From Oerskovia merdavium (lineage in GTDB: Bacteria > Actinomycetota > Actinomycetes > Actinomycetales > Cellulomonadaceae), in NCBI RefSeq assembly GCF_014836755.1, contig NZ_JACSQF010000009.1, positions 1 through 63,870 on the forward strand: DNA of 63,870 bases, read 5' to 3'. Both the position numbers and the translations under genes were made by a program. The notes beneath the pieces were generated by a model. It saw only the letters and a program-made list of their open reading frames with translations, did not search any database and was not told the DNA's origin. This document shows, piece by piece, positions 44,563 through 58,446 of the stretch. Numbering within the stretch: the first letter of the stretch is position 1; each line of letters starts with the position of its first letter.

Positions 44563-45861
<1,299 letters not shown>

Positions 45862-45994
45862 GTCTTCCTTCCTTGCGCGCTGCCGCTCCCCCTGCGGGTG
45901 GCTGCGCGTGTCTTCCGTGGTGTCGCCGCGAGATCGCCACCTGTCCGGCCGAGCCGTCGGTGGCCGAAGTGTCGGACAGCGTTGGCCTGGGTCG

Positions 45995-46023
45995 ACGGTA
46001 CTCGCTTCACCCACACGTGACCA
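45995..46023 (-). promoter_or_regulatory. candidate gltA promoter
   Basis: TGGTCA (46023-46018, -35) and TACCGT (46000-45995, -10) on the minus strand are 17 bases apart, giving a leader of about 125 bases. GC-rich elements make this tentative. Confidence 0.35.
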
Positions 46024-46050
46024 ATCTGGAACGGTCACAAAACCGTCACC

Positions 46051-46074
46051 CGCCTGTGATGCGGATCACAGGCG
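46051..46074. promoter_or_regulatory. CRP/GlxR-type palindrome upstream of gltA
   Basis: Ten-base perfect arms CGCCTGTGAT and ATCACAGGCG flank GCGG. The core TGTGA (46055-46059) N6 TCACA (46066-46070) is an exact CRP-family consensus. It lies about 74 bases upstream of the likely gltA start site and 39 bases past the dapC stop. GlxR is known to control gltA in Corynebacterium. The hairpin could also help end dapC transcription. Confidence 0.65.
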
Positions 46075-46112
46075 AGAACGAGGCGCAATTCGCCCAACAA
46101 TCGACAGGTGGC

Positions 46113-47249
46113 TCACACCACGGTCAGCCGGGCCGCGGCCTCGTGCACCCGCTCGTCGCTCGCGGTGAGCGCGACACGGACGTGGCCGGCCGCCGTCGGG
46201 CCGTAGAAGGCCCCGGGACCCACGAGGATCCCGAGGTCCGCAAGGGCGCCCACGGTCTCCCAGCAGTCGTGCTCATCCGCCGTCTCGCCCGCCGGGCGCG
46301 ACCACAGGTAGAGACCGGCCTGCGACCCGTCGACCTGGAGTCCGGCCTGCCCCAGCGCAGGAAGGAGCACGTCCCGACGCCGCCGGTAGACCTCGCGCTG
46401 GGCTGCGACGTGCGCGTCGTCCGTGAGAGCCGCGACCATGGCCGCCTGGACCGGGGCCGGCACGATCATGCCCAGGTGCTTGCGCGTCGTGAGCAGGTCG
46501 GCGACGACCCCGGGGTCTCCCGCGACGAACGCGGCCCGGTACCCCGCGAGGTTCGACTGCTTGGACAGCGAGTACGCGGCGAGCAGGCCTTCGTTCGAAC
46601 CACCGCTCACGCGCGGGTCGAGGATGCTCGGCACACCGGAGGTGGCGAACGGCTCCTCCCACGCGAGCTCGGCATAGCACTCGTCGCTCACGACGACCGC
46701 ACCGATCTCCCGTGCAGCGGCGACCACCCGCGCGAGCTGCTCGACCCCGAGGACCTCCCCCGTCGGGTTGCCCGGGGAGTTGACCCAGACCAGGCGCACG
46801 TCTTCTCGCCCCGCCCAGTCCTCGACCCGGTCGGTCGCGAGCGGGGTCGCGCCGGCGAGCCGGGCCCCCACGTCGTAGGTCGGGTACGCGGTGGCCGGGT
46901 GGACGACGACGTCCCCCGGACCGAGCCGCAGCAGCGACGGCAGCAGGCCCACGAGCTCCTTGGAACCGACCGTGGGCAGGACCGCGTCCGGGTCCAGCCC
47001 GGGCACGCCACGACGCCGCGCGAACCAGTCGACGACAGCCTCGCGCAGCACGGGCGTGCCGTGCGTGGTCGGGTACCCGTGCGCGTCCCCGGCGGCGGCG
47101 AGCGCGTCCCGCACGACGGCGGGGGTCGGGTCGACCGGCGTGCCGATCGAGAGGTCCACGATCCCGCGCGGGTGCTGTCGGGCGCGCTCGGCGAACGGCG
47201 TGAGCGAGTCCCACGGGTAGGCGAGGCCACCCAGGCTGGCGAATCCCAT
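46113..47249 (-). CDS. dapC: succinyldiaminopimelate transaminase
   Basis: A 378-residue class I PLP aminotransferase of the lysine pathway. It has the PLP-site block SPGNPTGEV, SDECYAE and the lysine motif AYSLSKQSNLAGYR. It follows the 7Fe ferredoxin gene by 21 bases, the arrangement recalled for M. tuberculosis Rv1177-Rv1178, which supports DapC over other aminotransferases. The ATG lies 12 bases after GGAGG. With dapD and dapE in the window, three succinylase-branch steps are present. Confidence 0.9.
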   Translation of the reverse strand: MGFASLGGLAYPWDSLTPFAERARQHPRGIVDLSIGTPVDPTPAVVRDALAAAGDAHGYPTTHGTPVLREAVVDWFARRRGVPGLDPDAVLPTVGSKELVGLLPSLLRLGPGDVVVHPATAYPTYDVGARLAGATPLATDRVEDWAGREDVRLVWVNSPGNPTGEVLGVEQLARVVAAAREIGAVVVSDECYAELAWEEPFATSGVPSILDPRVSGGSNEGLLAAYSLSKQSNLAGYRAAFVAGDPGVVADLLTTRKHLGMIVPAPVQAAMVAALTDDAHVAAQREVYRRRRDVLLPALGQAGLQVDGSQAGLYLWSRPAGETADEHDCWETVGALADLGILVGPGAFYGPTAAGHVRVALTASDERVHEAAARLTVV

Positions 47250-47270
47250 GGTGTTGTCCGGCCTCCGGGC

Positions 47271-47588
47271 TCAGGCCTGCGGGGCCAGGGCGGCGATCAT
47301 CGGGTCGTCCTTCTCGATCATGCCCATCTTCGCCGCACCACCCGGCGACCCCAGGTCGTCGAAGAACTCCACGTTCGCCCGGTAGTAGTCGCTCCACTCC
47401 GAGGGCACGTCGTCCTCGTAGTAGATCGCCTCCACCGGACACACCGGCTCGCACGCACCACAGTCCACGCACTCGTCAGGATGGATGTACAACGACCGCT
47501 TGCCCTCGTAGATGCAGTCCACCGGACACTCCTCGATGCACGCCTTGTCCTTCACGTCCACACAAGGCTGAGCAATCACGTACGTCAC
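47271..47588 (-). CDS. fdxA: 7Fe ferredoxin
   Basis: A 105-residue ferredoxin that binds one 3Fe-4S and one 4Fe-4S cluster. Visible motifs are CVDVKDKACIEECPVDC and CVDCGACEPVCPVEAI, plus the family tail with WSDYYRANVEFFDDLG. GTG at 47588 is chosen because AAGGA lies about 8 bases before it and the length is standard; a longer frame upstream is rejected. It heads an operon with dapC and is divergent from the SH3-like gene. Confidence 0.95.
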   Translation of the reverse strand: MTYVIAQPCVDVKDKACIEECPVDCIYEGKRSLYIHPDECVDCGACEPVCPVEAIYYEDDVPSEWSDYYRANVEFFDDLGSPGGAAKMGMIEKDDPMIAALAPQA

Positions 47589-47672
47589 GTCGGAGGTCCT
47601 TCCACCTTCTGCACAGGGCACTTCCCCCTAGTATCTCTCAGGAGACGGACATCCCGGCCACCCGCCGACCAA

Positions 47673-48014
47673 GTGAGCGTGACGACTGCTGTGAACCCCC
47701 CGCACCGCTTCCCCGCCGTCGACCCCGACTGGGCCTCCTGGCCCGCGGGCACGCGCGTCGTGCTCCGTCGCCGCCTGACCGACGCCGAGTCGCTCGCGAC
47801 GCGCGACCCGGCGAGCGGCGAGCCCGCGAAGACCGTGACCGACGTCATCGGGATCGTCCTGTCGACCGCGCCCGGGGAGTCCGTGACCGTCCGCACCGAC
47901 GCGGGCGGCTCGCGCGACGCGGTCGAGGTGACGATCCCGGCCGAACAGCTCGTCGCGGCCAAGCGCATCCCCCCGAGGCCGCCGCGACGGCTGCCCCGCC
48001 AGCCGGTCGACTGA
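47673..48014 (+). CDS. stand-alone SH3-like domain protein (Rv0428c N-terminal type)
   Basis: A 113-residue protein with a beta-rich domain: WPAGTRVVLRRRL, then TVTDVIGIVLS, SVTVRTDAGG and QLVAAKRIPPRPPRR. This is the pattern found at the N-terminus of actinobacterial Rv0428c-like GNAT acetyltransferases, but no acetyltransferase domain follows. The GTG at 47673 is the first of three close GTG codons; which is used is uncertain. Function unknown. It lies 85 bases from fdxA, divergently. Confidence 0.65.
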   Translation: MSVTTAVNPPHRFPAVDPDWASWPAGTRVVLRRRLTDAESLATRDPASGEPAKTVTDVIGIVLSTAPGESVTVRTDAGGSRDAVEVTIPAEQLVAAKRIPPRPPRRLPRQPVD

Positions 48015-48061
48015 GCCCGGCGAACGGCCGAGCCCGGCGTCCGGGTCCCGGCCCGGTCCGC

Positions 48062-48463
48062 TCAGCCAGGCACGACCGCGGCGATCGCGCTCACCTCGAT
48101 CAGGGCTCCGGGCACCCCGAGCCCCACGACCCGCGCCGCAGTCACGAGGGGCGGCGCCCCGGCGGTCGCCAGTCGCGGCGCGATCGCACCGTACGCCGCG
48201 CCGAGGTCCGCGTCGGCCGCGAGGAGGACCGTCCACTGCACGACGTCGGCGAGCGAGGCCCCCGCCGCCTCGAGCGCGATGCTGACGTTGTCGATGGTCC
48301 GGACCGACTGCTCGGCGACGTCGTCCGAGACGACCGCGCCCGTGTCGTCGACGCCGTTCTGGCCGCCCACGTAGATGGTCGCGGCCCCCGCGGGGACGAT
48401 CGCGACATGACTGAACGCCGGGCTCACCACGAGCCCGGCCGGCTGCATCCGTGTGATCTCCAT
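48062..48463 (-). CDS. RidA/YjgF-family protein
   Basis: A 133-residue protein with the family core YVGGQNGVDDTGAVV, SIALEAAGASLADVV and ALIEVSAIA. The Arg that marks imine-deaminating RidA (in the P-x-R-S block) is not evident: the matching stretch reads PPLVTAARVV, so it is probably a Rid subfamily without the standard activity. ATG at 48463 fits the family length; a longer frame is rejected. Single gene downstream of tyrA on the same strand, with a gap of about 120 bases between. Confidence 0.82.
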   Translation of the reverse strand: MEITRMQPAGLVVSPAFSHVAIVPAGAATIYVGGQNGVDDTGAVVSDDVAEQSVRTIDNVSIALEAAGASLADVVQWTVLLAADADLGAAYGAIAPRLATAGAPPLVTAARVVGLGVPGALIEVSAIAAVVPG

Positions 48464-48583
48464 GACCCCCACGGTTCCACGGCCCCCTGACACCGGCAGC
48501 ACGAGCGGCACGGCGAGCGCACGGGCCCGAGGACCGGGGTGGAGGGACCCGGCCCGCGGTGGCGCGTTCGCGCGGCGACCGGC

Positions 48584-49600
48584 CTAGCGGTGCAGTCCGA
48601 CGAGCGAGCCCTGCACCGAGACGACGGCCCAGCCCGCGAGGCAGAGTTCGACGAGCTCCCCTGCACCGTCCGGTTCCGCGAGGTCGACCGTCAGCCGTTC
48701 GCCCGACCCGTCCTGCACCGGCGACCCGGACGAGACCGACGACGGCCCGTCGACGCCCCGAGGCTGCCAGCCGGCCCGGACGTCGTCGGCACGGTCGAAG
48801 AACTCCGCCGCCGAGGCGTTCGCCTCGAGCGCCGTCGCGAGCGCCTCCAGGTCCCGTGCGGCGAGGCGCAGGGCGGGAGCGACCCACCCCGCGTTCTCGG
48901 TGAGCATGGCCTCGGTCCGGCGCGGGTCGGTCCGGCCCACCCGGGTCCCGTCGCGGAAGCTGCCCGCCGCGAGCGCCAGCGCGACGTCACGGACCGGGGC
49001 CGCCGAGACCAGGTTCAGCAGCTCGATCGCGAACGCGTGCGGGACGTGGCTGATGAGCGCGGCGGCCTCGTCGTGCACCTCGTCCGTCAGGACGTAGGCG
49101 CTCCCACCCGCGGGGCCCGTCACGAGCGCGAGCAGCGTCACGAGCAGGTCCGCCCGTGTGCGCTCGGTGACCGTGACGGCCCACCGTGCGCCGTCGAGCA
49201 GCGACTCCGAGGAGGCCGCGAATCCCGAGTGCTCGGTCCCCGCCATGGGGTGCGCACCGACGTACTGCTGCCCCAGACCGCACGCGTCGAGGACGTCGCG
49301 CACGGGCCCCTTGACCGACCCGACGTCCGTGACGAGCGTGGTCGCCGGCAGGTGGCGCGCGACCTCGGTGGCCACGGGACGCATGGCCCGCAACGGCACC
49401 GCGAGGACCAGGACGTCAGGCGCCGCGGTGCACAGCGCCTCGATGTCCGACGTGACGAGGATCCCGGCCGTCGCTGCCTCGGCGCGCGTCGCGGCCGAGG
49501 AGTCGTGGCCCGTGACCTCGATCCCCTGCGCCGCCAGTCTCCGGGCCAGCGACCCACCGATGAGCCCGAGGCCCAGGACCGCGACGGTCGGCGACGTCAT
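48584..49600 (-). CDS. tyrA: prephenate dehydrogenase
   Basis: Makes 4-hydroxyphenylpyruvate (or arogenate-derived product) for tyrosine. The 338-residue protein begins with a Rossmann loop VAVLGLGLIGGSLARRL and has TDVGSVKGPV and GAHPMAGTEHSGF. No ACT domain is plain at the C-terminus, which is a less conserved Ser/Glu-rich extension. ATG overlaps the pheA stop by 4 bases (ATGA). Third gene of the pseudo-pheA - pheA - tyrA operon. Confidence 0.9.
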   Translation of the reverse strand: MTSPTVAVLGLGLIGGSLARRLAAQGIEVTGHDSSAATRAEAATAGILVTSDIEALCTAAPDVLVLAVPLRAMRPVATEVARHLPATTLVTDVGSVKGPVRDVLDACGLGQQYVGAHPMAGTEHSGFAASSESLLDGARWAVTVTERTRADLLVTLLALVTGPAGGSAYVLTDEVHDEAAALISHVPHAFAIELLNLVSAAPVRDVALALAAGSFRDGTRVGRTDPRRTEAMLTENAGWVAPALRLAARDLEALATALEANASAAEFFDRADDVRAGWQPRGVDGPSSVSSGSPVQDGSGERLTVDLAEPDGAGELVELCLAGWAVVSVQGSLVGLHR

Positions 49601-50598
49601 GCCCACAGCAGCCCCCGGTCCAGCTCGTCGGCGCTCGCGCCGGCCCCGACCGAGCCCACCGGCACGTGGTCGCTCGAGAGCGCCTCGTCGAGCTCGCCCC
49701 GGGCCGGGAAGACACCGAGCGTCTTGACCGAGTCGCCCGCGGCGAGCAGGCCCTCGAGCACCTTCCGCACGGCCGGTTCCCACGGCGCCGCGTCGGCCGT
49801 CAGGACGAACACGTACTTGCCCTCGAGCGCCTTGAGCGGACGCGTGATGAGACTCGACAGGTTGACCCCGCCCGCCCCGAACGCCTGCGTGATCCGTGCC
49901 AGGACCCCCGGGCCCGTCACGAGAGGCGTGAGCGCGAGCATGGTGCGCCACTGTGCGGGACCGTCGGTCCGCGCCGCCGCGAGGGCGTCCCTCGCGCGGT
50001 CCCGCCGGACGATCGTGAGGAACCGGGTCCGTGCGCCGTGGAAGTCCTCGACGCCGGCCTCGAGCAGGTCGAGACCGTAGAGCTCGCCGCAGATGCTCGG
50101 CCCCAGCGCCACCTGGTGCGCGGTCGCGTCCCGGCACGCCGACGCGTTGGACGCGGCCGGCACCGGCAGCGCCCCCGAGCGCGTCACGAACTCCTGGCAC
50201 TGCGCCAGGCCGTGCGGGTGCGCGGTCACCTCGGTCAGCTCGCCGTGGCCCGGTCGGACGAACGCGTCGAACGTGATCTCGAGGACCACCTCGTCGATCG
50301 CGACGACGTCCTCGCTGCCCACGATCGCATCGAGCGACGGGACCACGTACCCCTCGACCGAGTTCTCGATCGCGACGATGCCCTGGTCGAAGGCCCCCGA
50401 GGCGACCCCGGCGTAGACGTCCGTCACGGTCGCGGCCGGCACCAGCTCGACGGGCGCCTCGACCGGACCCACGGCACGGCCCGAGGTGGTGCCGGACGCC
50501 TCCGGGGCCTCAGCGGGCTGTCCCTGGGACCGGACCCACTGCACGGCCGCCTGGTGCGTGAACGTGCCCTCGGGCCCGAGGTAGGCGACCCGGCTCAC
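49597..50598 (-). CDS. pheA: prephenate dehydratase
   Basis: Converts prephenate to phenylpyruvate. The 333-residue protein has the PDT block VAYLGPEGTFTHQAA, GIVAIENSVEGYV, and the TRF motif (ARTRFLTIV), followed by an ACT regulatory domain (GVLARITQAFGAGGVNLSSL). A Pro/Glu insertion of about 30 residues follows the first block. GTG at 50598 overlaps the preceding gene by 4 bases (GTGA). The ACT domain predicts feedback by phenylalanine. Confidence 0.93.
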   Translation of the reverse strand: MSRVAYLGPEGTFTHQAAVQWVRSQGQPAEAPEASGTTSGRAVGPVEAPVELVPAATVTDVYAGVASGAFDQGIVAIENSVEGYVVPSLDAIVGSEDVVAIDEVVLEITFDAFVRPGHGELTEVTAHPHGLAQCQEFVTRSGALPVPAASNASACRDATAHQVALGPSICGELYGLDLLEAGVEDFHGARTRFLTIVRRDRARDALAAARTDGPAQWRTMLALTPLVTGPGVLARITQAFGAGGVNLSSLITRPLKALEGKYVFVLTADAAPWEPAVRKVLEGLLAAGDSVKTLGVFPARGELDEALSSDHVPVGSVGAGASADELDRGLLWA

Positions 50599-51482
50599 GA
50601 GCCCACGTGCTCCGGCGCCCACTGCGGCACCAACGCGTCCGGGCCGGGCAGGAAGTCACGTCCCGGGAGCACCGCGAGGACGCGGTGCGCCACGTCGCGC
50701 GCCGCGAGCTCGCTCACGAGCGACGACAGCACCGCTGCGTCGGGGCACGAGAACGACGAGAAGAAGATGTGCGGCCCCGCGAGCGAGCGGTGGCTGCGCA
50801 GGTGCTGCATGTCGATCCCGCTCTCCGCGATGACCGACAGGGTCTGCTGGAGCGAACCGCGGTGGTCGTCGCGCGGACCGAACGCGAACCACACCTGCGC
50901 CTCGCCCTCGACGACGGGCGCGGGACGCCGGGCCTCGACGAGCCCGTACCAGATGGGGGCCCCCGCGCTCAGCTGTTCGCTGCCCGGGATCTCGGCCCAC
51001 CCCGCGGGGATCTCCGAGCGCTCGACGACCAGGGTGCCGTCCCGGCCCGAGAGTGCGATGCGCTCGTCGAGCGCCGTCCGGGAGGGGACCAGACGCGGGT
51101 TCGCGCCCAGGGTCCGCAGGACGTGACGGCAGTCGCGCATCCCGGCCTCGTCGACCACGACGCTGCCCGTGGCCTGGCCAGGCCGACCGACCCACACCCA
51201 CTGGGCGGGGACCGCGACGGCCGCGGTCACGACCAAGGACGGCGACGCCGCCAGGAGCGCCCGCTCGAGGTCGTGCGACGGCTGCGCGGGGTGCCCGATG
51301 TGCATGACGGCTGCGAGGTCGTCGATGCTCGCGACCGTCGCCAGGGTCGACGACGTGGATCCCAGGTCCAGCAGGTCGTCGGCGCCGGTCCCCGCGGGCA
51401 GACCGTCCGCGCCGTGCCACTTCGCGATCTGCGCCGCGAGCCGCGCGTGGGCCCCCGACTCGCGTTCACTACGTCCGAGCAT
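50595..51482 (-). CDS. PheA-like pseudoenzyme with ACT domain
   Basis: A 295-residue protein that aligns along its length with the pheA product next to it, but without the active-site motifs. The block equal to AIENSVEGY reads MHIGHPAQPSH, the TRF block reads WYGLVEA, and GPEGTFT has no counterpart. Later segments match well (VWVGRPGQ versus AFVRPGHG), and the C-terminal part is a PheA-type ACT domain (GSLQQTLSVIAESGIDMQHL). Residues 1-60 are unrelated. It overlaps pheA by 4 bases. It may be an amino-acid-binding regulatory partner; this is inference. Confidence 0.72.
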   Translation of the reverse strand: MLGRSERESGAHARLAAQIAKWHGADGLPAGTGADDLLDLGSTSSTLATVASIDDLAAVMHIGHPAQPSHDLERALLAASPSLVVTAAVAVPAQWVWVGRPGQATGSVVVDEAGMRDCRHVLRTLGANPRLVPSRTALDERIALSGRDGTLVVERSEIPAGWAEIPGSEQLSAGAPIWYGLVEARRPAPVVEGEAQVWFAFGPRDDHRGSLQQTLSVIAESGIDMQHLRSHRSLAGPHIFFSSFSCPDAAVLSSLVSELAARDVAHRVLAVLPGRDFLPGPDALVPQWAPEHVGS

Positions 51483-51660
51483 CGAGTGTCTCTGCCTTGC
51501 CTCGAGGGGTGGCTGCGCGAGCGCAGCGCGGGTCAGCGTCCGCCGAGCAGTCTAGCCGCGAGGGCACGTCCCGGCCGCGGGCGCAGGGCTCCGTGAGACG
51601 TCCCGGGCCACCGGTGACGCCCCGACCTTCCAGGCAGCGGCGAGTGCCGCGCCGAGCGCG

Positions 51661-51700
51661 ACGGAGCGGGCCGCGACCTTCCGGTCACGACCCGCTCCGT
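51661..51700 (-). terminator. hairpin after the VanW-domain gene
   Basis: ACGGAGCGGG (51661-51670) pairs with CCCGCTCCGT (51691-51700); the loop forms an inner GACC/GGTC stem. It lies about 76 bases past the stop at 51776. The rest of the 293-base gap to the pseudo-pheA start shows no gene. Confidence 0.65.
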
Positions 51701-51775
51701 GGTACTACCGGGCGCCTCGCCGACGCCCGACGCCGACCTGCTGGCTCCTGGTCGGAGGAACAGCTGGTCAGCAGG

Positions 51776-54649
51776 TCACGGCGCGCACACGACCTGGTTG
51801 TCCGGCTTGTACGTCCACGTGTTCTTCTCGTCCTTGACGACCTTGCCGTCGAGCAGGACCTTGCGGGGCGTCGTGATCGTGAACCCGGGGTTGCCCTTGG
51901 GCTGCGGCACGCAGTCGGCGCCCGAGTGCGTCACGGTCGTCGGCTGGACGACGTTGCGCTTCTCGCCCTCGCTCGTCTGCACCTCGTAGTACTTGGTGCT
52001 CCAGATCGCGACGTGCAGCTCACCGCCGCCGACCCAGGACTGCATGAGGACGCCGTAGGGGGTGTCGTTCTTGAACTTCATGTCGATCGAGCCGACGAAG
52101 ATGGTCGCCTCGCGCCCCGCCGGGTAGCGGCTGAACCAGTAGCTGTGCTGACGGTGCTCGACGTCGTCGAGGCCCGCGAAGAACCCGGCGTTGTACGTCG
52201 TGGTGGCCATCTGCGACAGACCGCCTCCGATCCCGTCGACGTGCTTGCCGTCCTGGACGATGCCGGCCGAGAAGTAGCCCCCGGCCTTGGTGATCGGCGA
52301 CAGCGTCTCCGTCAGCGAGAACGTCTCGCCCGGCAGCACGAGAGTCCCGTTGACCTTGCTCGCCCCGACGCGCAGGTTCTCGGTGCGCTGGGCGTCGTTG
52401 GTCAGGGGCGTCGAGAACTCGGAGACCTTCTCCTTGACGCCGAGCGCCTCGAGCGCGGCGACCGACTGGGCCGGGTCCGACTCGACGAGCTCGACGGTCG
52501 CCGTCCGCTCCGTCCCCGTCCCCGCAGTGGCGACCGCGGCGCTGAGGGCCGCGGGGTCGATCGTCGTGCCGGGCGCCCCGCCCTCGATCACCGGGGCGCC
52601 GTTGACGAAGACGAACTTGGCGTCGGCCGCCGCGTTGAGCAGGTCGTCCGTGCCGTCGACGACCGCCTCGAGGAGCGTCGCACCGTCGAGCGTGAGCTGG
52701 AGCGAGCCGTCCGCCGCGTTGAACGCCGCAGCCTCTGCCAGCACGTCCGGGCTCAGCTCGGCACGCTGGCCCCCGACCTCGACCGTGACCGGCGCCGAGA
52801 CCAGCGTCGTGGCCTGCGCGAGCGCCGCGTCCGTCTCCGCCTGGGTGATGGCCGGAGCGATCGGGTCGGTCGGCAGGTCGAGCGGCTGCGCGGCAGTGAG
52901 CCACGACGACTCGATGATCGTGGTGGCCTCGTCTGCGACGACCTCGGCGCCGTCGAGCGCCGGCGTGGCGGTGGGCTGCCCGTCGGTGAACACGACCGAA
53001 CCGTCGACGGGCTCGACGTTGAGGCTCGCCTCGACCTCCGCGACCTGGGCTGCGAGCTTGGTCTTGTCGACCGTCGTGACGGGCAGCTCCTCCTCGCCGC
53101 CGAAGAGCTGCTTCCACAGCTGGACGGGGCTCATGGAGAAGGACGTCAGCTCGTCGGCCGTGGCCTGGGCGTCGAACGCGAGGCCTGCGGCCGCGGGGTC
53201 GAGGGTCGTGGTCGCCTCACCGGCCTGGAGCGTGATCGGCTCCTTCGCGCGTCCCCCGAGCCCCTTCTCGAGCGCCGACACGGCCGAGGTCCGGTCGAGG
53301 CCGCCGACCTCGACCCCCGCCACCGTGGTCTCGGGCGGCACCTTGTCCGAGTAGAACCACTGGGCTCCCGTGTAGAGGCCGGCGAGCACGACGACGCCGA
53401 TGCCCGCCCACAGGGCGACCTTGGGCAGTCGGCTCGGTGCCTTGTCACCGGACAGGCCCGCGAGGGGCGAGTCGTCGGCCGGCGGCTCCGCTCCCGCGGG
53501 GGCCGAAACCCCCACGGGCGTGAACGCCGAGGTGACAGAGGTTCGCGCGGGAGCGGCGGGTGCGGGGGTCGCCGCAGCGCCCGACGTCGCCGCGCTCGTC
53601 CACGCAGACGTCGCCGGGGCGAAGGGGGAAGCGGGCGCCGCGGAGGCCGCGACCGGGGTTGCGGGAACCTCGGGGGCGCCCGGCAGGGGCGCGAGAACCT
53701 GGGTCGCCTGGGCGTCCGGGACCGGGAGGGCCTCCACGGGCGGCAGGACCTCGGTCACGGCGTTGGTCGGGACCTCGGTGGGAGCCGGCTCGACGGGAGC
53801 CGGCTCGGCCGCCACCGGACCTGCGGGCTCAGCGCGCGCGGGCTCGACCAGAACGGGCTCGACGGGAGCAGGCTCGGCCGCCACCGGACGTGCGGGCTCA
53901 GCGGGAGCGGGCTCGACGGGAGCCGGCTCGGCGGGAGCGTCCGCCTGCTCGAACGCGAAGACCCGAGGAGAGTAGGGCACGTCGTCGTCATCGTCGAACG
54001 ACGGGCCGTGAGCAGCTGCCGCGGGCTCGGTGTCCGCGACGGGAGCGGCAGTCGGCGCGGGTGCGCTCACCGGCTCGACCGCAACAGGGGCGTGCTCGAC
54101 CGGCGCCGCTTCGACAGGAGCGGGGAGCTCGGCATCGGCCACGGTCTCTGCCGACTCGACTGATGCAGGCTCGACCGGTGCCGGGGCCTCTCCCGAAGGA
54201 GCATCTGCGGCTGCGGGCGCGGTCGCCTCGGCGACCGGCGCGGGCTCGGCAGGTACAGCCGGTGCCGTCGCGGGGGTGACCACCGCGTCCGAGTCGACCG
54301 GCAGAACGTCCGCGCCGGACTCGACCGTGACGTCCTCTGTGCCGAGCGTCTCGGCGGGCGGCTCAGGCGATGACACCGTGTCCGCGGCGGGCACTGCCGC
54401 ATCCTCGGCAGGCGTCGGCACGGGCTGCGTGTCCAGAGACCCGCCCTCGACCGGAGCCGACTCCTCCGCAGGCTCGACGACCTCCTGGTCAGAGACGGCG
54501 CGCCCGGCCTCGGCGGCTGGGCTCGTCGGGGCGTCGGCCGCGGCGGGCACTGCCGCTGCGGCGGCCGGGGTGCCTGGCTCCACAGGAGTCGCAGTCCCGT
54601 CGCTCAGGCTCGGGTCGGGCGCGTTCTCACGCTCGGTCGGGTGTCCCAT
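51776..54649 (-). CDS. large membrane protein with peptidoglycan-binding and VanW domains
   Basis: A 957-residue protein. Residues 1-405 are a long cytoplasmic Pro/Ala/Glu/Val-rich tract with EPAPVEPAPAEPA-type repeats, then one membrane helix (about 410-430, VALWAGIGVVVLAGLYTGA). The outer part has putative peptidoglycan-binding repeats (PPETTVAGVEVGGLDRTSAV and later ones), then a VanW domain (GETFSLTETLSPITKAGGYF, GIGGGLSQMATTTYNA). VanW proteins occur in vancomycin-resistance loci but their role is unknown. ATG at 54649 has GGAG 7 bases upstream; a longer frame is rejected. Confidence 0.85.
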   Translation of the reverse strand: MGHPTERENAPDPSLSDGTATPVEPGTPAAAAAVPAAADAPTSPAAEAGRAVSDQEVVEPAEESAPVEGGSLDTQPVPTPAEDAAVPAADTVSSPEPPAETLGTEDVTVESGADVLPVDSDAVVTPATAPAVPAEPAPVAEATAPAAADAPSGEAPAPVEPASVESAETVADAELPAPVEAAPVEHAPVAVEPVSAPAPTAAPVADTEPAAAAHGPSFDDDDDVPYSPRVFAFEQADAPAEPAPVEPAPAEPARPVAAEPAPVEPVLVEPARAEPAGPVAAEPAPVEPAPTEVPTNAVTEVLPPVEALPVPDAQATQVLAPLPGAPEVPATPVAASAAPASPFAPATSAWTSAATSGAAATPAPAAPARTSVTSAFTPVGVSAPAGAEPPADDSPLAGLSGDKAPSRLPKVALWAGIGVVVLAGLYTGAQWFYSDKVPPETTVAGVEVGGLDRTSAVSALEKGLGGRAKEPITLQAGEATTTLDPAAAGLAFDAQATADELTSFSMSPVQLWKQLFGGEEELPVTTVDKTKLAAQVAEVEASLNVEPVDGSVVFTDGQPTATPALDGAEVVADEATTIIESSWLTAAQPLDLPTDPIAPAITQAETDAALAQATTLVSAPVTVEVGGQRAELSPDVLAEAAAFNAADGSLQLTLDGATLLEAVVDGTDDLLNAAADAKFVFVNGAPVIEGGAPGTTIDPAALSAAVATAGTGTERTATVELVESDPAQSVAALEALGVKEKVSEFSTPLTNDAQRTENLRVGASKVNGTLVLPGETFSLTETLSPITKAGGYFSAGIVQDGKHVDGIGGGLSQMATTTYNAGFFAGLDDVEHRQHSYWFSRYPAGREATIFVGSIDMKFKNDTPYGVLMQSWVGGGELHVAIWSTKYYEVQTSEGEKRNVVQPTTVTHSGADCVPQPKGNPGFTITTPRKVLLDGKVVKDEKNTWTYKPDNQVVCAP
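53791..53903. repeat. 69-base direct repeat in the VanW-protein gene
   Basis: Two nearly identical 44-base blocks at 53791-53834 and 53860-53903 (offset 69 bases, 23 codons) encode successive Glu-Pro-Ala units of the cytoplasmic tract. They lie in frame, so copy number could vary by slippage without frameshift. Confidence 0.7.
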
Positions 54650-54732
54650 CGACTGTCTCCGTGATGATGTGGGTGCGCGGTCGAGCCGCGACGAAAGAGT
54701 GGGGGATGCGGGCAGCCCGCACGGGGGCAATT

Positions 54733-55203
54733 CTATGCGTCTGTACCGAAGTGTCCGGTGGGTGTTCCGGGTGAAGATCCGGTGGCGATCTGCGGCTGCG
54801 GCGACTCGTCGCTCGTGCGGGCGACAGCACGCACGGGTCGGTCGCTGAACCAGGACGCGGGGAGGAAGGCCGCGGCCGCTACGAGCAGCATCCCGCCGTA
54901 GACCCACACGAGCCCGACGGTCTGGTTGGGTACGAGCAGGTCACCACCTGGCCCGCGCATCGACAGGACCTGGACGGCGACGACCCATCCGATCGCGAAC
55001 CCGACGACCCCGGCGTACCCGGCCCAGGCCCGCGCGAGCGTCCCCGCGGCGAGCACCGCGAGCAGCGCGACGACGACCCCCACGGGAAGGAGGTGGTCCG
55101 TCACCACGACACGGTGCATGACCGTGCCGACGACGCCCACGACGAGGCCGAGCAGCACGCACAGCAGCGCGTGCGTCAGGCGACGGGTTCCGGTCTTCTT
55201 CAC
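54733..55203 (-). CDS. four-TM membrane protein downstream of mshB
   Basis: A 156-residue protein with four hydrophobic helices (ALLCVLLGLVVGVVGTV; LLPVGVVVALLAVLAAGT; YAGVVGFAIGWVVAV; VWVYGGMLLVAAAAFL) and a polar Thr/Pro-rich tail. It resembles the small membrane proteins found after mshB in actinobacteria (DUF6113-like); function unknown. The GTG at 55203 overlaps the mshB stop by 4 bases (GTGA), so it is translated with mshB. A GTG three codons upstream is possible. Confidence 0.75.
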   Translation of the reverse strand: MKKTGTRRLTHALLCVLLGLVVGVVGTVMHRVVVTDHLLPVGVVVALLAVLAAGTLARAWAGYAGVVGFAIGWVVAVQVLSMRGPGGDLLVPNQTVGLVWVYGGMLLVAAAAFLPASWFSDRPVRAVARTSDESPQPQIATGSSPGTPTGHFGTDA

Positions 55204-56321
55204 GACGTCCACGCTACTGGTCCTGTCTGATCATTTCCCGTGAACGTGCGAGAGGCTCCCGCAGACTCCGAGGTCACCGTGTAGAACTCGCGTGAAGGAA
55301 GGGCAGCGAGGACGTCGTTGCTCAGCGCGTACCACCCGAGGACCTCACCCGCAGCGCTCTGACCCCGCTCCCCCGCCGGGGCTCCGTCGCCGTGCCGCAC
55401 CGCGACGCCGACGTGCTGCACCTGGGTCGCGTGCGCACGCAGTGCGCCGACCACGGCACCGAGCACCGGCTCGACCTCGACCACGACGACCTCCTCGAGA
55501 CCGTTCTTGGCCACGGGGGGCAGCGGCTCCTCGGGGTCGGTCAGCGTGAGCTCGGGATGCTCGGCGCGCAGCGCCGCGACCCCCGGCAGGACGGCCAGCT
55601 CACGTCGAGCTGCTCGCGCGACCTCGGCGGGCACCACGGACTGCCACAGCGCGGGCTCGTGACCCGCCGACGGGTCTCCTGCGCGCGCACCGCCCAGCCG
55701 GACGACCTCGGGGTCCGGGGCTCCGCCGTCGGGCAGCGCGGAACCCTGCTCCCGGGCGAGCTCGATCGCGCGGACCGTGATCTCGTGCGCCCGCACGTGG
55801 TCCGGATGGCCGTAGCCGCCCGACGGCTCGTACGTCACCACGACGCGCGGGCGCCGCTCGCGCAGCACGCGCGCGAGGCGGCGCGCCGCCTCGTCGAGCG
55901 GGACGCCGACGAGCGCTCCCTCGGGGAGGTCCGCCTCGGCCGCGGCCCGGGCGATGCCCGGCGCGGCCCACGCCATGCCCGAGTCGCGGAAGGAACGCTC
56001 ACCGACCTGGCCCGGCGAGCGGCCAGGCTCGCCGTCCTCGACCTGGTCGAGGAACACGTGGTCGGACACGCCCAGGCTCGCCAGCGCCGCGGCCAGCTCA
56101 CCCTCGCGGTGCGCCGCGAGAGCCGGGCCGTCGCCCTCGAGGTGCGCCAGCTCCGCGCCGATGACCTCGCCCTGCTCGCCGCGCGTGCACGTCACGAGCG
56201 TCACCGGCTCGCCCGCCGCCGCCCACGTCGCCAGCAGCGCGCCGGTCGCGAGGGTCTCGTCGTCGGGGTGCGCGTGCACGGCGAGCAGCCCACCACGGGG
56301 CTGGACCGGCTCGAGCCTCAT
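55200..56321 (-). CDS. mshB: mycothiol deacetylase (GlcNAc-Ins deacetylase)
   Basis: Removes acetate from GlcNAc-inositol in mycothiol synthesis. The 373-residue zinc enzyme has the LmbE motif HAHPDDE (residues 16-22) and the second metal His in GYGHPDHVRAH. The N-terminal half fits MshB; a longer Glu/Pro-rich C-terminus includes PVLGAVVGALRAHATQVQHV. GGAGG lies 4 bases before the ATG. It marks the organism as a mycothiol producer. The four-TM gene overlaps its stop. Confidence 0.9.
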   Translation of the reverse strand: MRLEPVQPRGGLLAVHAHPDDETLATGALLATWAAAGEPVTLVTCTRGEQGEVIGAELAHLEGDGPALAAHREGELAAALASLGVSDHVFLDQVEDGEPGRSPGQVGERSFRDSGMAWAAPGIARAAAEADLPEGALVGVPLDEAARRLARVLRERRPRVVVTYEPSGGYGHPDHVRAHEITVRAIELAREQGSALPDGGAPDPEVVRLGGARAGDPSAGHEPALWQSVVPAEVARAARRELAVLPGVAALRAEHPELTLTDPEEPLPPVAKNGLEEVVVVEVEPVLGAVVGALRAHATQVQHVGVAVRHGDGAPAGERGQSAAGEVLGWYALSNDVLAALPSREFYTVTSESAGASRTFTGNDQTGPVAWTS

Positions 56322-56407
56322 TCGTCCTCCAGAGGTGCAGGTAGAGCGGAGCCCGCACCGCCGGTCACGAGGACCAGCGGCACGGGCTGCGTGCTCAGCG
56401 GTTGTGC

Positions 56408-56428
56408 AGTCCTGACGAGATCAGGACT
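56408..56428 (-). terminator. short hairpin over the typA stop
   Basis: AGTCCTGA (56408-56415) pairs with TCAGGACT (56421-56428), 5-base loop; the right arm includes the typA stop codon. Short and without T-tract, so only a weak terminator. Confidence 0.45.
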
Positions 56429-58331
56429 TCTTGGCGCGGGAGAACGCGCGGGCGCGCTCGGTCTGGTCGAGGATGACCTTGCGGATGCGCACGACCTCGG
56501 GGGTGACCTCGACGCACTCGTCCTCGCGGGCGAACTCGAGCGACTCCTCGAGCGTCAGGTGCTTCGGAGGGGTGAGGTTCTCGAACGTGTCGCTCGACGC
56601 GGCACGCATGTTCGTGAGCTTCTTCTCCTTGGTGATGTTGACGTCCATGTCCTCGTTGCGCGAGTTCTCACCGACGATCATGCCCTCGTAGACCTCCTGC
56701 GTGGGGTCGACGAAGAAGGAGCCGCGCTCCTGCAGGTTGATCATCGCGAACGGCGTCACGACGCCCGCACGGTCAGCGACGAGCGAACCGTTCACACGGG
56801 TCTCGATGGGGCCCGCCCACGGCTCGTAGCCCTCGGCGATCGAGGACGCGATGCCCGTGCCGCGCGTGTCCGTGAGGAAGCGCGTACGGAAGCCGATGAG
56901 CCCGCGAGCCGGGACGACGAACTCCATGCGGACCCAGCCCGTGCCGTGGTTCGACATGGTCTCCATGCGGCCCTTGCGCTGCGCGAGGAGCTGCGTGACG
57001 TTGCCCAGGTACTCCTCGGGCACGTCGATCGTCATGCGCTCCATGGGCTCGTGGCGCTTGCCGTCGATCTGCTTGGTGACGACCTGCGGCTTGCCGACGG
57101 TCAGCTCGAAGCCCTCGCGGCGCATCTGCTCGACCAGGATGGCGAGCGCGAGCTCTCCACGGCCCTGGACCTCCCAGGCGTCCGGACGCTCGGTCGGCAG
57201 GACGCGCAGCGACACGTTGCCGATGAGCTCCTTGTCGAGACGGTCCTTGACCTGGCGGGCCGTGACCTTGTGGCCCTTGCCGCCCTTGCCCGCGAGCGGG
57301 GACGTGTTGATACCGATCGTCATCGAGATCGCCGGGTCGTCGACCGTGATGAGCGGCAGCGGACGCGGGTCCTCGGGGTCCGTGAGGGTCTCACCGATGG
57401 TGATCTCCTCGATGCCGGCGACGGCCACGATCTCGCCCGGGCCCGCCGAGTCCGTGGGCACGCGGGTGAGTGCCTTGGTCTCGAGGAGCTCGGTGATCTT
57501 GACGTTCTGCATGCTGCCGTCGGCACGGGCCCACGCCACGGTCTGGCCCTTGTGGATGGTGCCGTTGAAGATGCGCAGCAGCGCGAGGCGACCGAGGAAC
57601 GGCGACGCGTCGAGGTTGGTGACGTGCGCCTGGAGCGGCGCACCCTCCTCGTACGTGGGGGCCGGGATCTTGTCGAGGATGACCTTGAACAGAGGCTCGA
57701 GGTCCTCGCTGTCCGGGACCGAGCCGTCAGCCGGCTGGACCGTCGAGGCGCGTCCGACCTTGGCCGCGGCGTAGACCACGGGCATGTCGAGGATCGCGTC
57801 GAGGTCGAGGTCGGGGACCTCGTCCGCGAGGTCGCTCGCGAGACCGAGCAGCAGGTCGGTCGCCTCGGCGACGACCTCCTCGATGCGCGAGTCGGGGCGG
57901 TCGGTCTTGTTGACCACGAGGATCACGGGGAGCTTGGCGACGAGCGCCTTGCGGAGCACGAAGCGCGTCTGGGGCAGCGGGCCCTCCGACGCGTCGACCA
58001 GGAGCACGACACCGTCGACCATGGACAGGCCGCGCTCGACCTCACCACCGAAGTCGGCGTGGCCCGGGGTGTCGATCACGTTGATCGTGATGCCGTCGGG
58101 CTGACCGGCGGCGATCGCTGCAGGACCGGCATAGTGCACGGCGGTGTTCTTCGCGAGGATCGTGATGCCCTTCTCGCGCTCCAGGTCACCGGAGTCCATG
58201 GCCCGCTCGTCGACGTGCGCGTGAGCGCCGAAGGCGCCGGACTGGTGCAGCATCGCGTCGACCAGGGTCGTCTTGCCGTGGTCGACGTGGGCGACGATCG
58301 CCACGTTGCGCAGGTCAGAGCGCACAGACAT
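56421..58331 (-). CDS. typA: translational GTPase TypA/BipA
   Basis: A ribosome-binding GTPase of 636 residues. G motifs are G1 AHVDHGKTTLVDAML, G3 DTPGHADFGGEVERG and G4 NKTDRPDSR, followed by the BipA domains (YEGMIVGENSRNEDMDVN, and a C-terminal region ending ERARAFSRAKKS). Length fits the family. ATG at 58331 is the start seen in homologues (MSVRSDLRN); no clear ribosome site. A TAAGAT element lies about 115 bases upstream. Its place before mshB follows the mycobacterial Rv1165 region. Confidence 0.94.
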   Translation of the reverse strand: MSVRSDLRNVAIVAHVDHGKTTLVDAMLHQSGAFGAHAHVDERAMDSGDLEREKGITILAKNTAVHYAGPAAIAAGQPDGITINVIDTPGHADFGGEVERGLSMVDGVVLLVDASEGPLPQTRFVLRKALVAKLPVILVVNKTDRPDSRIEEVVAEATDLLLGLASDLADEVPDLDLDAILDMPVVYAAAKVGRASTVQPADGSVPDSEDLEPLFKVILDKIPAPTYEEGAPLQAHVTNLDASPFLGRLALLRIFNGTIHKGQTVAWARADGSMQNVKITELLETKALTRVPTDSAGPGEIVAVAGIEEITIGETLTDPEDPRPLPLITVDDPAISMTIGINTSPLAGKGGKGHKVTARQVKDRLDKELIGNVSLRVLPTERPDAWEVQGRGELALAILVEQMRREGFELTVGKPQVVTKQIDGKRHEPMERMTIDVPEEYLGNVTQLLAQRKGRMETMSNHGTGWVRMEFVVPARGLIGFRTRFLTDTRGTGIASSIAEGYEPWAGPIETRVNGSLVADRAGVVTPFAMINLQERGSFFVDPTQEVYEGMIVGENSRNEDMDVNITKEKKLTNMRAASSDTFENLTPPKHLTLEESLEFAREDECVEVTPEVVRIRKVILDQTERARAFSRAKKS

Positions 58332-58446
58332 ACAGAACTCATTTCGGGAGAGGAGCAAGCGACGGAGGTTTCCGCCCCGGAGTTGGTGGCCAGCAGACGG
58401 GCGCCGCCCGCGCAGAGCACGCGCGCGCCGTCGTCCGGGCACGGCT

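Follow-up and report, generated by a model that had tools for sequence, protein, structure and literature searches.

The window analysed here, a stretch of 63,870 nucleotides from Oerskovia merdavium, carries a three-gene pheA-tyrA cluster on the minus strand. The first gene (50595..51482, minus strand, ATG start) encodes a 295-residue protein, the candidate prephenate dehydratase (PDT)-fold pseudoenzyme. It is followed by pheA (49597..50598, minus strand), encoding a PDT of a divergent subfamily with intact IENSVEGY and TRF motifs and 3luy as its nearest solved relative, and by tyrA (48584..49600, minus strand), encoding a prephenate dehydrogenase that gave no Pfam ACT match at E ≤ 1. The pseudoenzyme stop codon (50595-50597) and the GTG start of pheA (50596-50598) form the 4-base overlap GTGA (50595..50598, minus strand), and pheA ends at 49597 with the tyrA ATG at 49600, so that the two 4-base overlaps claimed in an earlier sequence-only reading of this DNA are correct by stop and start coordinates. 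Upstream of the cluster, separated from it by some 290 bases, lies a gene (51776-54907) for a VanW-domain and PG_binding_4 protein, the N-terminal half of which contains a long Pro/Ala/Glu-rich stretch. No Rfam match was found within 45500-56500 of the window, and no promoter-like or terminator-like site within 48400-51900. Chorismate mutase, PheA and TyrA are all present in the genome, where no protein other than the neighbouring PheA matches PF00800 at E ≤ 0.001.

A scan of genome contigs returned 44 loci, all from actinobacteria and including one (L009) that runs off its contig; the closest relative among the named genomes scanned is that of Oerskovia enterophila, 98% identical. These 44 named loci were inspected one by one, and in every one of them the pseudoenzyme gene lies upstream of pheA on the same strand, with the PheA start motif downstream. 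In 35 of the 44, a start codon stands at precisely the spacing that gives the 4-base overlap. The family alignment comprises 43 sequences, the window protein and those of 42 loci, leaving out a near copy (L002) and a frameshifted sequence (L040). The pseudoenzyme frame of L040 stops prematurely and the pheA frame of L007 is interrupted; both may be sequencing errors. The aligned start codon of the pseudoenzyme gene is ATG in 41 of the 44 loci, GTG in two and CTG in one. Since this codon is conserved and the codons upstream of it are unlike one another, the protein truly begins at the LG that matches YLGPEGTF. The GPEGTFT start had been described as missing, which holds for the altered stretch after LG and not for the LG itself.

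The sequence-only reading held that the protein aligns with the neighbouring PDT over much of its length, and this was not borne out: BLASTP found no similarity between the two proteins (best E 0.79), and a profile comparison aligned the ACT domain alone (E 0.0014). Single-sequence Pfam, NCBIfam and PDB searches with the pseudoenzyme protein gave weak ACT-like matches only, and none of the 43 family members matched PF00800 at E ≤ 0.01, the window protein also failing the PF00800 cut-off. The longer PDT relationship is visible in the predicted fold and in a comparison with a profile built from mostly canonical actinobacterial PheA (25 PDTs scoring below 200 bits with the neighbouring-PheA profile), to which hhalign aligned residues 77-275 with an E-value of 9.4e-7 and a score of 52.6; the controls reached at most 23.2 over 100 column shuffles and 10.6 for the reversed alignment. 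The pseudoenzyme is collinear with the PDT family in the alignment. The N-terminal domain by itself scored 21.9 in hhalign against 26.8 for the best of 100 shuffles, which is not significant, and its assignment therefore rests on two fold predictions and on its collinearity with the ACT domain.

The first of these predictions, an AlphaFold model of the whole protein, reached a pLDDT of 87.1 and a pTM of 0.85. A Foldseek search with this model gave PDT-family chains, headed by 3luy and 3mwb, for all of the best 15 PDB matches (E 2.0e-12 to 1.1e-6). The N-terminal PDT-like (periplasmic-binding-like) domain, residues 1-188 (50919..51482, minus strand), was also modelled without the ACT domain, with a pLDDT of 89.8 and a pTM of 0.85. 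Its Foldseek ranks 1 to 7 were PDTs or the PDT homologue GqqA (E 1.2e-7 to 1.5e-5), and among the lower matches are further periplasmic-binding-like domains as well as ATP phosphoribosyltransferases. A PDT-like fold in this part of the protein, on which the pseudoenzyme proposal had been made to depend, is thus what the models predict. The predicted fold is that of a PDT domain followed by an ACT domain, and it is stronger evidence of PDT likeness than the sequence.

The catalytic motif sites were compared in an alignment of 18 pseudoenzymes, drawn from the 43 family members, with 54 PDT-type sequences. Among the latter, the glutamate of IENSxEG is present in 53 of 54 sequences, and its glycine, the histidine and glutamine of HPxxxxQC, and the threonine and phenylalanine of TRF in 54 of 54. 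At the IENSxEG site the window protein has HIGHPAQP (residues 61-68; 51279..51302, minus strand), with H64, P65 and P68 invariant in 43/43 family members; in all 18 pseudoenzymes the glutamate is replaced by glycine, alanine or aspartate and the glycine by proline. The HPxxxxQC site is occupied by DEAGMRDC (residues 111-118; 51129..51152, minus strand), all eight residues of which are invariant in 43/43; here both the histidine and the glutamine have become aspartate and the neighbouring cysteine is kept, each in 18/18. At the TRF site, IWYG in the window protein (residues 177-180; 50943..50954, minus strand), the threonine is leucine, isoleucine or valine in 18/18 and the phenylalanine is tyrosine in 17/18, being retained in one. 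The loss of the catalytic blocks noticed at the outset, with AIENSVEGY replaced and TRF absent, is confirmed in the 18 pseudoenzymes aligned, E, G, H, Q and T being replaced in all of them and F in 17. For comparison, PMC8192741 ascribes substrate binding in E. coli PheA to E159 and E232. From these replacements we infer that PDT activity has been lost, and the predicted models support the reading of the protein as a PheA-like pseudoenzyme. The motif sites also carry new invariant residues (H, D, E, R and D in the 43 sequences), and because several of the replaced positions have become invariant the site gives the impression of having been rebuilt, not eroded; to judge by these residues, it could serve a ligand or a reaction of its own.

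The C-terminal ACT domain (residues 195-273; 50664..50900, minus strand) scored 14 bits (E 0.046) in a single-sequence scan of the window protein, against a curated cut-off of 27 bits for PF01842, and single-sequence scans matched it at E ≤ 0.01 in 13 of the 43 family members. The neighbouring PheA, which retains an ACT domain of its own, also falls under this cut-off with 19.1 bits. The relation is found by profile, with an hmmsearch match to 4lub at E 0.001 and an hhalign E-value of 9.8e-6 when the ACT part is compared with mostly canonical PheA, and the secondary structure of the predicted model agrees with an ACT fold. The ESRP-type motif is altered to LRSHxS. The statement that a PheA-type ACT domain remains was consequently right as to fold and profile relation, but the single-sequence score is weak and the ESRP-type motif is changed. 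PMC10845154 assigns ESRP and GALV a role in ligand binding and TRF one in catalysis.

The gene is under purifying selection. In 10 Oerskovia pairs its dN/dS was 0.02-0.14, compared with 0.18-0.23 for pheA, a value that takes in a variable linker, and 45 more pairs from the Promicromonospora group gave 0.03-0.23. The 43-sequence alignment has 60 invariant columns, those of DEAGMRDC included.

In an order-wide sample the pseudoenzyme was found in 18 of 396 genomes, all of them from the window's family; within that family 103 of 221 genomes, spread over 18 of the 25 genera, carry it. The divergent PheA was matched in 102 of the 103 bearing genomes, four of these matches being partial (G519, G541, G561 and G577), versus none of the 118 others, which scored at most 148.2 bits with the divergent-PheA profile, two of them without any match. 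This co-occurrence probably reflects one lineage event; the bearing genera may form a single lineage, which makes it weak as repeated evidence. The pseudoenzyme is thus encoded and inherited with its presumed catalytic partner, as a HisZ-type subunit is, with the exception of one genome, G555, described below. Class-wide, the profile matched 10 of 394 genomes outside the family at E ≤ 0.01. Inspection covered seven of them (G672, G584, G676, G094, G780, G928 and G802), the remainder of the ten being G645, G611 and G660; four of the seven are PDTs in which the ACT domain was matched, and the other three matches, over residues 76-151 and with no PDT score, look like chance.

The divergent PheA subfamily also occurs in 29 sampled genomes of another family, f4, which is taken to be Bifidobacteriaceae because the solved 3luy, from Bifidobacterium adolescentis, is of this PheA type. 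A search of the sampled f4 genomes with the pseudoenzyme profile found no partner, and the divergent PheA is the only PF00800 protein in all 10 f4 genomes tested. As the same subfamily exists there without the partner, a PheA of this type seems not to need one. The PheA proteins of f4 (L100-L111, 3luy type) have TEF or TDF at the TRF site in 12/12 aligned rows and so lack the TRF arginine, yet each is the sole PF00800 protein where this was tested. The 3luy entry was deposited as a probable chorismate mutase and matches the neighbouring-PheA profile at E 5.7e-99; PMC8192741 treats it as a PDT.

The exceptional genome, G555 (a closed, one-contig genome of the Promicromonospora-like group; L115 and L121), shows an in-frame internal loss of pheA and keeps an open pseudoenzyme gene beside tyrA. 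In this pseudoenzyme P129, one of the 60 otherwise invariant residues, is replaced by leucine, and the dN/dS is in the usual range. Elsewhere the genome has another, divergent PDT with TQF for TRF, adjoining a prephenate-dehydrogenase-like gene.

Concerning its origin, the pseudoenzyme profile came nearest to mostly canonical PheA (E 9.4e-7), followed by bifidobacterial-type PheA (E 9.1e-5) and the neighbouring PheA (E 0.0014). A likeness to the divergent PheA shows, however, in the GM/GL pair at the DEAGMRDC motif. Maximum likelihood unites the pseudoenzymes in one clade (100/100), placed between the canonical and divergent PheA groups; its branch is very long and was flagged by the program as unsafe. 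AU tests of two narrower groupings reject neither the one with the neighbouring PheA group (p 0.352) nor the one with the family's own canonical PheA (p 0.213).

The most economical explanation of these observations is a non-catalytic subunit made together with PheA. A diverged PDT homologue that has lost its dehydratase chemistry would serve as this subunit: its synthesis would directly precede that of PheA, probably with translation of the two coupled, and it would use the PDT/ACT dimer surfaces to pair with PheA and, on binding a small molecule, tune PheA activity or feedback, the ligand site presumably being the hybrid ACT interface, the altered cleft or both. We consider such a PDT-derived subunit tuning PheA the best explanation, at slightly less than even likelihood. 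A regulatory, HisZ-like subunit of PheA is plausible on the strength of gene order, overlap and lineage co-occurrence, together with the analogy to HisZ/HisGS. The more specific picture, in which one Actinomycetes lineage has a co-translated PDT-fold subunit that would form a hetero-oligomer with the divergent PheA and sense an aromatic metabolite through its altered cleft and a hybrid ACT interface, we hold with greater reserve, as possible rather than probable. Against a tight partnership with PheA stand the f4 genomes without a partner, the survival of the partner after the internal loss of pheA in G555, the ACT domain that PheA has of its own, and the invariant charged residues at the motif sites.

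The main rival is that the rebuilt site catalyses something new. The PDT scaffold would then hold a new active site for a different reaction tied to aromatic metabolism, with H64, D111, E112, R116, D117, C118, R141 and E154 as candidate residues, which we consider unlikely, though the likeliest of the alternatives. Eight consecutive invariant residues in DEAGMRDC and a dN/dS below that of pheA in the Oerskovia pairs would fit such an enzyme, and a precedent is offered by GqqA of Komagataeibacter europaeus, which shares the PDT fold and ACT domain, was matched in both fold searches and, according to PMC8192741, both rescues an E. coli pheA mutant by complementation and has a second reported activity, as an AHL acylase. 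Unlike GqqA, the pseudoenzyme adjoins an intact pheA; moreover, no missing step is apparent, with chorismate mutase, PheA and TyrA all present, and 118 of 221 family genomes, like the sampled f4 genomes, give no match.

A pseudoenzyme that regulates TyrA, or the balance between the PheA and TyrA branches, rather than PheA alone is improbable. In its favour are the lack of an ACT match in the clustered TyrA and the place that the pseudoenzyme keeps beside tyrA in G555; but G555 is a single genome, tyrA follows the divergent PheA in the f4 loci L100-L102 without any partner, and a PDT-like protein has a more natural dimer partner in PheA than in TyrA. Still more doubtful is that the protein dehydrates prephenate or arogenate with an active site of an unusual kind: the predicted PDT fold and the TEF/TDF of the f4 PDTs would allow it, but all 18 aligned pseudoenzymes have other residues at five positions on which 53 or all 54 of the PDT-type sequences agree, and an intact PheA is encoded next door. 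That the gene is a decaying relic of an older PheA is hardly tenable and largely refuted by the selection data, since the split of the match in two in 5 of the 103 bearing genomes (G502, G528, G570, G573 and G577) and the frameshift of L040, which may all be sequencing errors, are set against a gene kept in 103 of the family's 221 genomes, 60 columns without variation across 43 sequences and a dN/dS of 0.02-0.23 in all 55 pairs.

The pseudoenzyme can be compared with several known systems. With the PDT family (PF00800 plus ACT; 3mwb, 3luy, 2qmw and 6vh5) the pseudoenzyme shares the domain order, the predicted full-length fold and a collinear alignment, and it differs in its replaced hallmark residues, the lack of a PF00800 match in 43 members and the altered ACT motif. 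The small subunit of AHAS is an ACT-domain regulatory subunit working with a separate enzyme, whereas the ACT domain of the pseudoenzyme is attached to a whole PDT-like domain. HisZ of the short-form ATP phosphoribosyltransferase resembles histidyl-tRNA synthetase and not its partner, while the pseudoenzyme shares the fold of its presumed partner PheA. The likeness to HisZ, which is one of analogy only, is that of a non-catalytic protein controlling the catalytic subunit of an amino-acid pathway; as to the absence of a catalysis of its own, the pseudoenzyme has lost the PDT residues, yet has new invariants at the same sites. That HisZ works with HisGS as a regulatory subunit is stated in PMC9734150.

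Going by titles and abstract openings in the open-access literature, most subscription journals being outside its scope, we found no description of a PDT pseudoenzyme or of a same-fold regulatory partner. PDT is usually regarded as a self-contained enzyme with feedback through its own ACT domain. If the proposed role in tuning PheA is true, a dead enzyme of the same fold would act as a second control layer on phenylalanine synthesis, and a textbook pathway would gain a regulatory subunit in the form of a conserved, tightly selected partner without the chemistry. The occurrence of the same PheA subfamily without the partner in another family provides a natural comparison, which makes the function directly testable.

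The surroundings of pheA in the two families were also compared. In the f4 loci L100-L102 a membrane-protein-like ORF precedes pheA, and ahead of it comes an ORF resembling typA, which in L101 was confirmed as TypA. The membrane proteins between typA and pheA are a DUF6113 protein in the window and proteins with no Pfam match in L101 and L102. In the window typA (56421-58442) likewise lies a few genes before pheA, and its position (within 54736-58442), taken with that in L101, hints at a common gene order.
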